DNA of 24,634 nucleotides, taken from IMG/VR virus record IMGVR_UViG_3300042301_000198, positions 1 to 24,634 of that record; one strand, given 5' to 3'. Every line of letters begins with the position of its first letter. The stretch's first letter is position 1. The notes beneath the pieces were generated by a model. The model was given only the letters and a program-made list of their open reading frames with translations, did no database searches and was not told the origin of the DNA. Positions 8,824 to 12,953 of this stretch are shown here, one piece after another. The stretch is from a virus. Position numbers and translations under genes: made by a program.

Positions 8824-9807
8824 TTATAACTCTATAGATGCAGAAGCATGGATATAGTAACCATTTCCTGCTGTGGTTGATGTTGTTCCATTTATCACGG
8901 CAAGTTCTTGACTAGCAGTTGCAACTACCGCTGTTGGAGTTGTTGCATTTGGTGACCAATTTGCATTTGCAGCATTTGGTGAAAATGTTGTAATAGTTGG
9001 ATTAGCTCTCATTGTTACTGGCAATTTCCAAACACTAGCAAATGATAAATTATTTACTTGGGCAATATTGTACAAACTGTTAAAGTCACCACTATTTTGC
9101 CCTACAGCAACAGATTGTGGAAATGTCTTTGCAAAATACCTTTGACAATTAGCCAATTCCTGATTATAAAGTCTGCGTTCAAACGGTGTTGCTGATGTGC
9201 CTATTTCTAGTTGGACATTTGTTACTTTAATTGTACGACCTGCTACTCCATTAAAAACAATATCAATTTCAATGCCATTATAAGCTGTAGAAGGTAGTGA
9301 TAATTGACCACTAAATGAAACATATGAACCCGCTGTTAGTGAAACTGAAAATCCTGAAATTGCAGTTGCATAATTAGAGTCTGTTGATGTAGCAGCAAAT
9401 CCTGAAACTGAACAACTAACACCAGAAATACTATCAATATAAATTTGACCTGAAACAGTTACAGTTTTGTTTATTAAATCAAGACAATTTTTAGATTCTA
9501 TTCTTTGAAGAAATACAACTGCTGTATTTCCAGTTAATGGTAATAATTGTTCAGCTTTATCATAAGTATTAGGCCCAGCTACTTGTTGACAAGTAACATT
9601 TGAACCAACGCTATATACAGCCCATCTATCTGTAATATATGTTACAGAACCACTTGTTGCTGTTGTACTAGCCCCAGCATTTCTCTGGTCCACAACCATT
9701 GCACCATTTATAATACGGTTCTTTAGTACATAAGGTGATGCTGCAGCTCCTTGTAGAGATGAGTCATTAAAGGTAACTCCATTACTACCATCTAGTGTCA
9801 TTGCCAT
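8824..9807 (-). CDS. Tail-fibre protein with jelly-roll-like C-terminal tip
   Basis: 327 residues. It opens [20 protein letters not shown], a common fibre start, then [17 protein letters not shown] (about 29-45) and ITDRW (about 58-62). These mark the start of a widespread phage fibre domain with a carbohydrate-binding-module-like beta-sandwich. The domain continues through [14 protein letters not shown] and the closing motif [16 protein letters not shown] (about 197-212) and [11 protein letters not shown] (about 215-225). The last 100 residues are a beta-rich tip ending [13 protein letters not shown]. It probably binds a surface polysaccharide. AAGGA stands 8 bases ahead of ATG 9807. The 49-residue accessory gene follows immediately. 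Confidence 0.82.
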
Positions 9808-9818
9808 TATGCTATTCC

Positions 9819-10457
9819 TTATTCATATAATATGTTAACTGAACCTGCATCAAAAGTATCTGTGCCGTTTGCTGTGGTAATGCGAACCATATTTAATGTT
9901 CCGCCTAGAGTAACAGTACCACCTGTGCTTACTGTCATGGCAGTTCCACCGCTGTAATTTCCGCCAACAGTTCCAGAAGCTATCCAAATATTTCCTGAAA
10001 TATTAACTATTGAAATTGAACCAGAAAGAATTGAAGTTGCACCACTTGGATAAATAATAAATCCCGCAGTACTTGTGGTTGCTACGTTACCTGATGCATA
10101 AGCCTGATTTGAAGCCGAAACATATCCGCTGCTTGTTGGTGTTCCGCCTGTTCCAGCTTGAATTAACCAGTTAGATGTTCCGTTTGTTGATACTGCGTTA
10201 AAAATCACAGTAATACGCTTAACCCATGAAGGAATAGACGTAAAGTCTTTAGATGTTCCAGATGTAGTTGCTTGTGCTGTTCCTGATACAATTGGATATG
10301 TAACTCCAGTGCTACTTGCAATTGTTCCCGTTACAGCCAAGCCTGTAGAAGACACAGTAGCAATTGTAGTGCCCGCACTTTGTAGTTGTAGCTGTCCTGT
10401 GTTATCAGAGGTTATAACTACGCCAGAGCTTGTAGTGGCATTTACAATAGAAGCCAT
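9819..10457 (-). CDS. Tail-fibre protein, TSIPSWVKR family, copy 1
   Basis: 212 residues: a leader MASIVNATTSSGVVITSDN, a shaft-like LQLQSAGTTIATVSSTGLAV segment, then the domain starting KDFTSIPSWVKRITVIFNAV (about residues 70-90) and ending VRITTANGTDTFDAGSVNIL-YE. This C-terminal domain recurs in many phage fibres and is the same as in the 11086-11727 gene, which has a different N-terminus. The leader is similar to the first 18 residues of the endonuclease gene directly upstream. ATG 10457 overlaps that gene's stop (TAATG), and the endonuclease's last codons provide the AAGGA ribosome site. Virion structural function is confident; the ligand is unknown. Confidence 0.8.
   Translation of the reverse strand: MASIVNATTSSGVVITSDNTGQLQLQSAGTTIATVSSTGLAVTGTIASSTGVTYPIVSGTAQATTSGTSKDFTSIPSWVKRITVIFNAVSTNGTSNWLIQAGTGGTPTSSGYVSASNQAYASGNVATTSTAGFIIYPSGATSILSGSISIVNISGNIWIASGTVGGNYSGGTAMTVSTGGTVTLGGTLNMVRITTANGTDTFDAGSVNILYE
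10204..10244. repeat. Dispersed 41-base repeat, copy A
   Basis: Matches 11462-11502 with one mismatch (c for t at the fifteenth base). It encodes the SIPSWVKRITV part of the shared fibre domain. A candidate site for recombination between the two paralogues that flank the endonuclease. Confidence 0.8.
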
Positions 10458-11077
10458 TATTTAATATCCTTATTTTTACAATTATCCATATGCCATGTTC
10501 TCATACCTGCTATTTTTCCAACCCTATTACAATGTGGGCAAGTTACAATAACTCTAAAAGCCTCTTTAGACTTTTCTGCCATAGCAACACCTTTATTCCA
10601 TGCTTTTTGAAATCCTTTTAATCCTTTGTTCCAAGGTGATTGTCCTAAATGTGATTCTCTTAAATTTTTCTTATGCTCTTCAGATAGCTTTAATCCTTTA
10701 GACCATCCAGGAATTCCTAATCTATCTTTGTTGCCATATCTTAAAGGAGGCTTTCCACCGCCCTTTACAATATTCCATCCTATATTATTATCTATTCTAA
10801 GTTTATTTTCTAGCATTAAACAATAATCTTCCTTTGAAACCACCAATATTGTCTTAATAAGATTATCCCAACCATATTTTTTAATGGCTTCAAATAAATG
10901 CACATTATATTTACTTTTTTTGTGGTTAGTAAATCTTTGTTTTGTATTAGTAGAAACGCCAATATATCCTTGGCTAAATATATCTGTATGATCTGGATGA
11001 TGGATCCAATAAAGTGAGCACTTGTTATCTGCTGTGGTAACTATGCCTGAACTTGTGGTTGCGTTAATTGATGCCAT
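10457..11077 (-). CDS. GIY-YIG homing endonuclease fused to a tail-fibre leader
   Basis: 206 residues. Residues 1-18 (MASINATTSSGIVTTADN) match the fibre leader of the next gene. From residue 20 a GIY-YIG nuclease begins: Y23 in SLYWI, G37-Y38-I39-G40, R48 in KQRF, E90 in LENKL and N102 in GWNIVKGG, a full catalytic set. Next come NUMOD3-type DNA-binding motifs (GIPGWSKGLKLSEEHKKNLR and SPWNKGLKG, about 121-160). A C-terminal zinc-finger-like CPHC ... H-x3-C (C180, C183, H196, C200) follows. Such enzymes cut an allele lacking the insertion and spread by repair. The nuclease has no Met near residue 20, so it uses the fibre leader as its translation start. It looks richer in A/T than its neighbours, consistent with transfer. 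Confidence 0.92.
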   Translation of the reverse strand: MASINATTSSGIVTTADNKCSLYWIHHPDHTDIFSQGYIGVSTNTKQRFTNHKKSKYNVHLFEAIKKYGWDNLIKTILVVSKEDYCLMLENKLRIDNNIGWNIVKGGGKPPLRYGNKDRLGIPGWSKGLKLSEEHKKNLRESHLGQSPWNKGLKGFQKAWNKGVAMAEKSKEAFRVIVTCPHCNRVGKIAGMRTWHMDNCKNKDIK

Positions 11078-11085
11078 GTTTTATC

Positions 11086-11727
11086 CTATTCGTATAAAAT
11101 GTTAACTGAGCCAGCATCAAAAGTATCTGTGCCGTTTACTGTGGTTATGCGAACTCGGTCAAGAACATCTGATAAAGTTTTGCTTCCAGCTTGAATACCT
11201 AGTGCTTGGTCGGCTGCTGCATACAATACTCCTGAGCAAATCCAAATATTCCCGCTAATGTTTGTGAAAACCATGTGTCCTGAATACGATACACTCGACC
11301 CGTTGCTTGTTCTAATACCAAAACCAGTAGTAAAAGAAGTGCCTGCTAATGAATTAAACGCAGAAAGAGTTCCTGCAACATACCCAGTATTTTCAATACC
11401 GCCAGAATCACCCAACTGTACCTGAATAATAGAAGTACCATTTGTACTTACACCATTAAACATCACAGTAATACGTTTAACCCATGAAGGAATAGACGTA
11501 AAATCAATGCTAGTTCCTGACGTAGATGCTACCGCTGTGCCACTTGTTAATACGCCTACTCCAGTTGGAGTTCCTGCAATGACTGGGCTAGTTAATGTTT
11601 GTCCTGTAGCTGTTGTTAAAATAGTTCCAGATGTTGTAGGAAGTGTTAACGTAGGAGTGCCTGCAACCGAGGGAGCTTGAATTATTGCTTGTCCTGAAAT
11701 ATCACCATTTAAACTAATACTTGACAT
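11086..11727 (-). CDS. Tail-fibre protein, TSIPSWVKR family, copy 2
   Basis: 213 residues. The N-terminus MSSISLNGDISGQAIIQAPS and VAGTPTLTLPTTSGTILTTA is a common phage shaft or trimerisation-like start. It differs from the leader of copy 1. The C-terminal half carries the same domain as copy 1: DFTSIPSWVKRITVMFNGV (about 74-92), NISGNIWICSG, and VRITTVNGTDTFDAGSVNIL-YE at the end. Retained core with changed head and surface loops indicates module shuffling. The gene lies just upstream of the endonuclease gene with an 8-base gap holding that gene's AGGAT ribosome site. Virion fibre role is confident. Confidence 0.8.
   Translation of the reverse strand: MSSISLNGDISGQAIIQAPSVAGTPTLTLPTTSGTILTTATGQTLTSPVIAGTPTGVGVLTSGTAVASTSGTSIDFTSIPSWVKRITVMFNGVSTNGTSIIQVQLGDSGGIENTGYVAGTLSAFNSLAGTSFTTGFGIRTSNGSSVSYSGHMVFTNISGNIWICSGVLYAAADQALGIQAGSKTLSDVLDRVRITTVNGTDTFDAGSVNILYE
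11462..11502. repeat. Dispersed 41-base repeat, copy B
   Basis: Partner of 10204-10244 with one mismatch. The two copies flank the endonuclease gene. Confidence 0.8.
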
Positions 11728-11741
11728 TGTATTTTCCTATT

Positions 11742-11954
11742 TTAAAGTATGGCCCATTTACTGCCTGATGGAATAGTTATTGACACGCCACTATTAATAA
11801 CTATTGGTCCGACTGACATAGCTGAAGTGCCAGCTGTTAATGTATAACTTGTAGCAACAGCTAATGTGTTTTCATATAAAGGTGTTCCAGCATTAAAAGC
11901 AACACTACTTGTGCCGCTTCCTATCATTGCTGCTTGTACTTTGGTTAATGGCAT
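11742..11954 (-). CDS. Short fibre-related virion protein (70 aa)
   Basis: 70 residues: MPLTKVQAAMIGSGTSSVAF, then TPLYENTLAVATSYTLTAGT, then ISIPSG-type ending (SITIPSGSKWAIL). The start is typical of phage fibre attachment modules, and the IPSGSKW end is a common closing strand of small phage beta domains. It appears complete, not a broken longer gene, because both ends are recognisable and it fits cleanly between neighbours with small gaps. It might be a minimal fibre, a cap, or an attachment subunit for the larger fibres on either side. Specific role unknown. Confidence 0.7.
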   Translation of the reverse strand: MPLTKVQAAMIGSGTSSVAFNAGTPLYENTLAVATSYTLTAGTSAMSVGPIVINSGVSITIPSGSKWAIL

Positions 11955-11963
11955 GATTTATCC

Positions 11964-12953
11964 TTATGCTGTATAGCTTCCTGAAGATGTAAATTGCATA
12001 ATTATATTAACTCCTGATGTTGTGACAGTTGGGCTTCCTGTAGTTATCCCTGTGTAATTTGCGATTGGAACGGATAAGATAACCACACCTGAACCACCAT
12101 TACCACCTACACCACCTGTGCCAGATGCTGGCCATCCGCCACTGCCTCCACCAGAACCTGTATTAACTGTAGCTGCTGAACCAGCTCCTGTGCTTGTTCC
12201 TCCATTACCACCACCTCCAGAACCACCAGTACCAGCTGCATATCCAGTATAAGAACCTCCGCCTCCGCCTCCAGCTCTTGTTACAGATGATCCTGTAATG
12301 GAAGATGCAGTTCCAGCTCCACCGTTTCCAGATGATAATCCAGTTGCTCCTACAGCACTTGATCCTCCACCACCACCACCCCTATAAGGTACATTTGCAC
12401 CGTATCCTGTGCCTCCAGCAAAACCTTGTCCAGAAGTTCCTGACCCACCAGCAAAACTTGCACCGCCTCCACCTCCAGAACCGCCAGAACCACCAGTATT
12501 AAGAATATTAGCTCCATATCCACCACCTATGGATGTTTGAGTTGTAATACCTGAGCCACTTAATACAGAATTAGATCCAGCAGCTCCATTAGCTCCATTT
12601 AGACCCTGTCCAGTGTTGGTGGTAGCACCAGCCCCACCAGCTCCTACTGTAATTGTATATACAGTATTTGTACTAAATGTTTCAGTTCCTGATAAATAAC
12701 CTCCAGCACCTCCACCACCAGTACCATTACCATTACCACAAGCTGATGCACCACCACCACCACCTGCAATTACTAAATAAGATGCAGAATAGGTAGGAAT
12801 AGTAGAACTTAATATCCAAGAAGTTCCATTATAAACTTCTATTTGTCCTATGGTTGTATTCCACCCCATCTGACCTGTAACAGGCGATGAAGGACGAGTC
12901 GCTGTAGTCCAGTTAGTCGGTGTAAAAGATGCTACGTTTACGGCTCTTGTCAT
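11964..12953 (-). CDS. Glycine-rich tail-fibre protein (paralogue 1 of 3)
   Basis: 329 residues. An N-terminal module with TTATRPSSPVTGQMGWNTTI and GQIEVYNGTSW (about 17-47) is followed by a glycine-rich domain. That domain begins SASYLVIAGGGGGASA (about 56-71), has YTITVGAGGAG, several GGGG clusters, and ends SGVVILSVPIANYTG ... TTSGVNIIMQFTSSGSYTA. The same plan and closing residues occur in the 14718 and 16077 genes. Polyglycine-rich fibre tips of this type are known receptor-binding domains in phages. The ATG overlaps the preceding gene's stop (ATGA), and GAGGA stands 6 bases upstream. Confident as a fibre; ligand unknown. Confidence 0.83.
   Translation of the reverse strand: MTRAVNVASFTPTNWTTATRPSSPVTGQMGWNTTIGQIEVYNGTSWILSSTIPTYSASYLVIAGGGGGASACGNGNGTGGGGAGGYLSGTETFSTNTVYTITVGAGGAGATTNTGQGLNGANGAAGSNSVLSGSGITTQTSIGGGYGANILNTGGSGGSGGGGGASFAGGSGTSGQGFAGGTGYGANVPYRGGGGGGSSAVGATGLSSGNGGAGTASSITGSSVTRAGGGGGGSYTGYAAGTGGSGGGGNGGTSTGAGSAATVNTGSGGGSGGWPASGTGGVGGNGGSGVVILSVPIANYTGITTGSPTVTTSGVNIIMQFTSSGSYTA

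Follow-up and report, generated by a model that had tools for sequence, protein, structure and literature searches.

The fused gene and its neighbours

We analysed a 24,634-nucleotide stretch of viral DNA (positions 1 to 24,634 of IMG/VR record IMGVR_UViG_3300042301_000198), referred to here as the window. Three genes follow one another on its minus strand: a tail-fibre gene, fibre A (11727-11086), a fused gene (11077-10457), and a second tail-fibre gene, fibre B (10457-9819). The fused open reading frame encodes 206 amino acids and joins an 18-codon tail-fibre leader in frame to a GIY-YIG homing endonuclease gene (HEG) that has no start codon of its own. This leader, the stub L1 (11024-11077, minus strand), reads MASINATTSSGIVTTADN, and fibre B starts at 10457 with the 19-codon leader L2, MASIVNATTSSGVVITSDN (10401-10457, minus strand). 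An initial annotation had proposed that the first 18 codons of the fused gene copy the leader of the next fibre gene. This is borne out by a stub/leader match score of 64, compared to a maximum of 18 across 33 control windows from the same contig, and chance is excluded as the source of the match.

Directly ahead of the stub lies a ribosome-binding region, AATAGGATAAAAC (11078-11090, minus strand), that of the original fibre gene and now used by the HEG fusion. Its spacer, AGGATAAAAC, also precedes uninserted fibre genes on contigs L202, L203, and L205. At the other end of the fused gene, the final HEG codons contain an AAGGA Shine-Dalgarno (SD) sequence (10467-10471, minus strand) 9 nt ahead of the fibre B ATG, and the two open reading frames overlap by one base in the sequence TAATG.

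Fibre A is a paralogous neighbour that lies outside the element. The initial annotation noted that the flanking fibres share a C-terminal domain, which they do, but the likeness is not confined there, as the two proteins show 46% identity over nearly their whole length. It also described a 41-base block common to both genes; this block is inexact, and the longest exact run is 26 nt. The similar DNA comprises blocks of 68 nt at 91% identity (at the C-terminus), 112 nt at 78%, and 79 nt at 86%, the last including the spacer.

Identity of the nuclease

Domain, homology, and structure matches identify the HEG body (10457-11023, minus strand) as a GIY-YIG/NUMOD3/zinc-finger nuclease. The window HEG itself scores below the curated Pfam cut-off, and GIY-YIG (PF01541) is matched in 11 of 12 family members (E up to 0.01) and NUMOD3 in 7 of 12. 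PHROG 314, annotated “homing endonuclease,” gives a match to the window protein at 8e-19. A sequence search against solved structures gave no useful match for the HEG. In an AlphaFold model of the fused protein, confidence is highest in the catalytic domain (residues 19-93, pLDDT about 80-90), and the leader is disordered (pLDDT < 50 for residues 1-16). The top PDB match of this model is 1mk0, the I-TevI catalytic domain (E 8e-3, probability 1.00). Y23, Y38-G40, R48, E90, and N102 are invariant across 12 relatives, and by their spacing we take the invariant Y..YIG, Arg, Glu, and Asn to be the equivalents of I-TevI R27, E75, and N90.

We found 24 relatives of the HEG in IMG/VR and further ones with an alignment search. 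Most begin M-x-x-S-V-Y-W-I-H-H, directly at the nuclease, and among them the same 18-19 codon leader is present in L002 alone (85% identical). Since the relatives start straight at the nuclease, the leader is an addition to the window HEG. This agrees with the earlier view that a nuclease without its own Met follows the leader, and L002 has the same fusion. We rejected the leader as the HEG family's own N-terminus, as most relatives lack it or have another one. We also saw no case of this leader serving as a standard N-terminus at a distance from fibre genes, and leader type is associated with the HEG. An assembly chimera is unlikely, as the fusion is repeated in L002 on a different contig and the build is present in the complete phage MEP301. 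Between the window and L002, the nuclease body has a dN of 0.087 and a dS of 0.60, purifying selection which indicates that it is not decaying. Only one relative came from bacterial genomes, on a pond MAG contig, and the family is therefore chiefly phage-borne.

An empty site and a split fibre gene

An uninterrupted orthologue of the fibre gene is located at 4504-5037 of L138. It reads MASINATTSSGIVATADN-TGQLQLQSAGTT..., with the leader running straight into the body (...TADN-TGQLQLQSAG). The initial annotation had the nuclease landing in a fibre gene and suggested searching related phage genomes for the locus without the insert. L138 is such a locus, and it places the junction exactly at the DN codons. 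The gene order in L138 is an 88-aa gene, MASINATTSSGIVATADN-TGQLQLQ, and then MSLIVDGTTG; L002 keeps both neighbours and has the HEG and a second leader in addition. At this orthologous site, L138 is empty, and L002 and the window are occupied. Because the neighbours match between L138 and L002, the HEG must have entered the gene between GATAAC and ACAGG. L138 is a different phage species from the window, whose upstream neighbour (fibre A) also differs. Other pairs of empty and occupied alleles are L014/L145, L135/L141, L151/L140, L186/L161, and L187/L160.

The stub shares 93-96% nucleotide identity with the leaders of the uninserted L138 and L113 fibre genes, and its DNA pattern was found in seven contigs (the L138 contig, which is L203, and L113 among them), all with uninserted fibre genes. 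L2 is 67-72% identical to L1 and the empty leaders and 95% identical to the L2 of L002, and its DNA pattern was found solely behind the HEG, in L002. The original body follows L2 in fibre B (TGQLQLQSAG...), and 48 of its first 60 nt are the same as in uninserted L138. Since L1 is like the uninserted leaders and the body after L2 matches the uninserted gene, comparison of the alleles shows what reads as one fibre gene split by the HEG behind its leader, after the DN codons, and then restored, with the old leader serving as the HEG start and the second leader restoring the fibre open reading frame. The suggestion that the nuclease kept the fibre's translation start fits well, as the stub that matches uninserted leaders heads the HEG. 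Its placement between two paralogous fibre genes stands only in that fibre A and fibre B flank it; fibre B is the interrupted gene itself, restored, and not a second gene.

Alternatively, there may have been two separate fibre genes, with the HEG replacing the body of one paralogue and leaving its leader, and with fibre B simply being the next, untouched gene. These phages do have arrays of fibre genes with similar leaders, and the DNA of the stub and L2 differs by 28-33%. However, the same two genes flank this site in L138 and L002, and between them L138 has a single fibre gene in place of the L002 stub, HEG, and fibre. That single gene has the leader of the stub and a body 58% identical to the L002 fibre, and the pattern of a stub with a leader of the same type is repeated at many loci. 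We consider two separate genes unlikely and favour a single fibre gene, split and restored.

Several other features of these fibre loci were observed. The same 18-19 codon leader, in nearly identical DNA, lies ahead of several unrelated fibre bodies (L200-L205 and L113), which we take as direct evidence of leader/body shuffling. At one and the same fibre site, L002 and L138 have different endonucleases, a different GIY-YIG-like type at L002:400-978 and a family member at L138:3121-3723. These have nearly the same last codons (KGINNVVN and KGIDNVVN) and overlap the fibre start by the same 14 nt, which looks like a swap of catalytic parts onto a common 3' end. In the L002 homologue of fibre B (L002:2418-2825), a premature TAA follows residue 135 although the frame continues past it; this is either a true nonsense change or a sequencing error. 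HNH-like nuclease genes, as read from their sequence, are also present within fibre arrays at L006:4284-4763 and L014:2117-2731, the L014 gene being directly ahead of a fibre gene. The starts of tail-fibre genes are possibly a hot spot shared by several families of nuclease.

Recoding of the replacement leader

In the window, 8 of the 13 degenerate codons that specify the same residue differ between L1 and L2, while the stub and the empty leaders are 88-96% identical among themselves at the nucleotide level. A replacement end that is diverged in DNA yet conserved in protein is found in the window, L002, MEP301, L195, and L196; in MEP301, 7 of 9 such codons are respelled between the stub and the new leader. 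Recoding is not universal, as L194 has a stub and a new leader that hardly differ (27/33 nt the same, with 3/9 synonymous changes). This locus (L194:3001-3600) is unlike its close relative MEP301 in that the two leaders are alike in both protein and DNA, possibly through gene conversion between both copies. The recoding in the window could also come from a diverged donor instead of selection for resistance. Comparing the window and L002 over segments that are short, dS is 1.13 for the catalytic half, 0.26 for the DNA-binding half, 0.15 for L2, and 0.50 for the stub. These values are no more than suggestive of the DNA-binding half, which would read the target, and L2, which would escape the nuclease, having moved together as a unit.

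The arrangement across the family

We compared 63 distinct family loci, mostly from metagenomic contigs, with 62 loci in the stub count and 62 rows in the tree. In all 63, the start of the next gene falls between -20 and +2 nt relative to the HEG stop, and in 59 this gene is a fibre gene with a leader. An SD of at least 4 nt lies ahead of 57 of the 63 downstream starts, compared to 69 of 651 ATGs inside HEGs, which supports the earlier proposal that the last codons of the HEG provide the ribosome site of the downstream fibre.

Recognisable stubs (score at least 20) are present at 17/62 loci versus 7/592 control windows, and with a strict cut-off (score at least 30) at 10/62 versus 0/592. The long stubs span 7 to 20 or more codons. 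Several (L019, L172, L181, and L186) lie in another frame than the HEG, and expression of the HEG is therefore not the reason for their retention. Examples include MSLILDGTT ahead of MLILDGTTG (L172), MSGVIIAGNT ahead of MSSVIVAGNVSG (L124), and MASVTILSDNGATSGSAGLKTSG ahead of MSSSYILSDNGASSGSAGIKQFGG (L179). A displaced old leader accompanied by a new copy is present in the window, L002, and MEP301, and is clear too in L124, L166, L172, L173, and L179. Judged by eye, most long stubs stop at a conserved glycine or no more than two codons from it (DN^TG, GD^TG, GT^TG, GDT^SG, and GDTS^G, with ^ marking the junction). Junctions before the (T/S)-G pair, also read by eye, include ^ACAGG in the window, ^ACGGG in L186, ^ACTGG in L187, and ^TCAGG in L173, this last one read from the general leader pattern, with no empty L173 allele found. 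Short in-frame stubs also occur, such as MASIV-YW (L135) and MSSV-YW (L014), and here the match to the empty alleles reaches the same codon; a short start of this kind, MSSV-YW for example, may instead be native to the HEG.

On the 62-row HEG tree, the downstream leader type (INA, GDTSG, LDGTTG, or other, typed partly by hand) changes 5 times, compared to 26.2 in shuffles, with 0 of 200 shuffles as low. That HEG clades keep to leader types is expected if the leader DNA is the target. L126 has two family members, each ahead of a different leader type.

In L183, L185, and L189, the gene that the family member abuts is not a fibre gene (MSVIMSYDSLVLNIQQYMERND...), and the target may have changed there. 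At L008:5269 and L009:4816, the fibre start is a TTG located 17 nt inside the HEG 3' end. We rejected the idea that the fibre start is broken at these loci, as the TTG start accounts for the fibre gene; a gene caller favouring ATG would leave out the front of these fibres.

An ordinary free-standing HEG of the T4 Seg type could also lie between genes, in which case the leader likeness would come only from use of the gene start, and replacement of the 5' end would be no part of mobility. In many family members the leader-like part is just 3-5 codons long, and T4 free-standing HEGs home without an intron and have cut sites away from the gene (PMC2988022). However, the longer stubs include the out-of-frame examples above, which are useless for expression, and the empty alleles are interrupted within the coding region, with the insertion inside the fibre leader. 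We find this explanation decidedly unlikely and retain insertion into the leader with replacement of the 5' end. A group I intron or intein that carries the HEG and is removed at the RNA or protein level is hardly credible and was rejected: GIY-YIG HEGs typically travel in introns and are often joined in frame to the exon ahead of them, but there was no Rfam match for intron RNA in 9500-12000 (E up to 1), nearly no non-HEG sequence lies between the stub and the restored leader, and the downstream fibre gene is intact, with its own SD, start, and full leader.

The cultured marine OM43/Methylophilales phage MEP301 has the same stub-HEG-leader build in gp20-gp19, which belong to the same family, with a leader of another type than that of the window (stub MASIKLQGDTS ahead of MASIKLQGDVSG). 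MEP301 gp20 was published only as a “putative endonuclease” that was proposed to help break down host DNA (PMC8024684). Having the build in a cultured phage makes the element testable, and many “putative endonucleases” in fibre clusters, as well as some odd fibre starts, may be such insertions.

Proposed mechanism

We think it likely that these loci hold a homing element, which moves as a unit made up of a GIY-YIG HEG and a replacement 5' end for its target tail-fibre gene. In the window, the HEG lies inside the fibre leader, after ...TADN and before TGQLQ, and the old leader remains as an N-terminal stub from which the HEG takes its start. The second complete leader restores the fibre open reading frame, with the final HEG codons holding the SD and the HEG stop overlapping the fibre start, and this build recurs over the family on several leader types. 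The endonuclease would cut uninserted fibre leader DNA near the conserved (T/S)-G codons. Repair of the break would then copy the HEG and leader, using leader and fibre-body homology at one end and often short homology at the other, and because of this short homology the stubs would vary in length and frame. Through its different spelling, the replacement leader would keep the restored gene from being recut, with hardly any change to the protein.

More tentatively, and as something that may or may not hold, this phage homing class could be a natural cleave-and-rescue drive that cuts the most conserved codons of the fibre leader, puts in a recoded, nuclease-immune leader, moves among fibre genes, and promotes receptor-binding shuffling. 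It would be a natural parallel to engineered drives with a recoded rescue. Because one leader type heads many different bodies, the nuclease would move among fibre genes, and for the same reason exchange of receptor-binding modules is plausible. The element offers a concrete route for breaking and recombining fibre genes that have a common leader and unrelated bodies.

Comparison with known systems

The element shares a GIY-YIG catalytic domain, intronless homing, and a phage setting with Seg, Mob, and I-TevI of phage T4. The T4 Seg and Mob HEGs lie beside or between genes and have a distant cut site, whereas the element described here interrupts the coding sequence of its target, captures the start of that gene, and supplies a new gene end. 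We found no report of target-end replacement in phages in the literature searched, the coverage of which is incomplete.

The closest parallels are eukaryotic. WHO elements of the yeasts Torulaspora and Lachancea consist of a HEG and a replacement 3' end of FBA1 (eLife 2020 e55336 / PMC7282813). As in the phage element, the mobile unit is a HEG with one end of the target, the old end is displaced, the target remains functional, and neither an intron nor an intein is involved. WHO elements differ in acting on the FBA1 3' end of a eukaryote, in having an intein-derived nuclease, and in that cleavage and resistance were demonstrated (PMC7282813), whereas the phage element has a GIY-YIG nuclease, a tail-fibre 5' end as its target, and putative cleavage. 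Fungal mitochondrial mORFs, found in Allomyces atp6 and in Glomus atp6, atp9, cox2, and nad3, likewise combine a HEG insertion with a duplicated target end that is divergent in DNA and nearly the same in protein (64-81% nt and 94-100% aa identity in Glomus) (PMC3630166). They differ in being non-viral and mitochondrial, in duplicating C-terminal ends, and in having LAGLIDADG nucleases in three cases and GIY-YIG in one (PMC3630166).

Homing elements that rebuild a gene end are thus known from yeast nuclei and fungal mitochondria, with the 3' end rebuilt in all cases compared. The window element is best read, by analogy, as a phage, 5'-end mirror image of the yeast WHO elements and the fungal mitochondrial mORFs. 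If true, this would be a phage version that rebuilds the 5' end, in genes that determine which bacteria a phage can infect.
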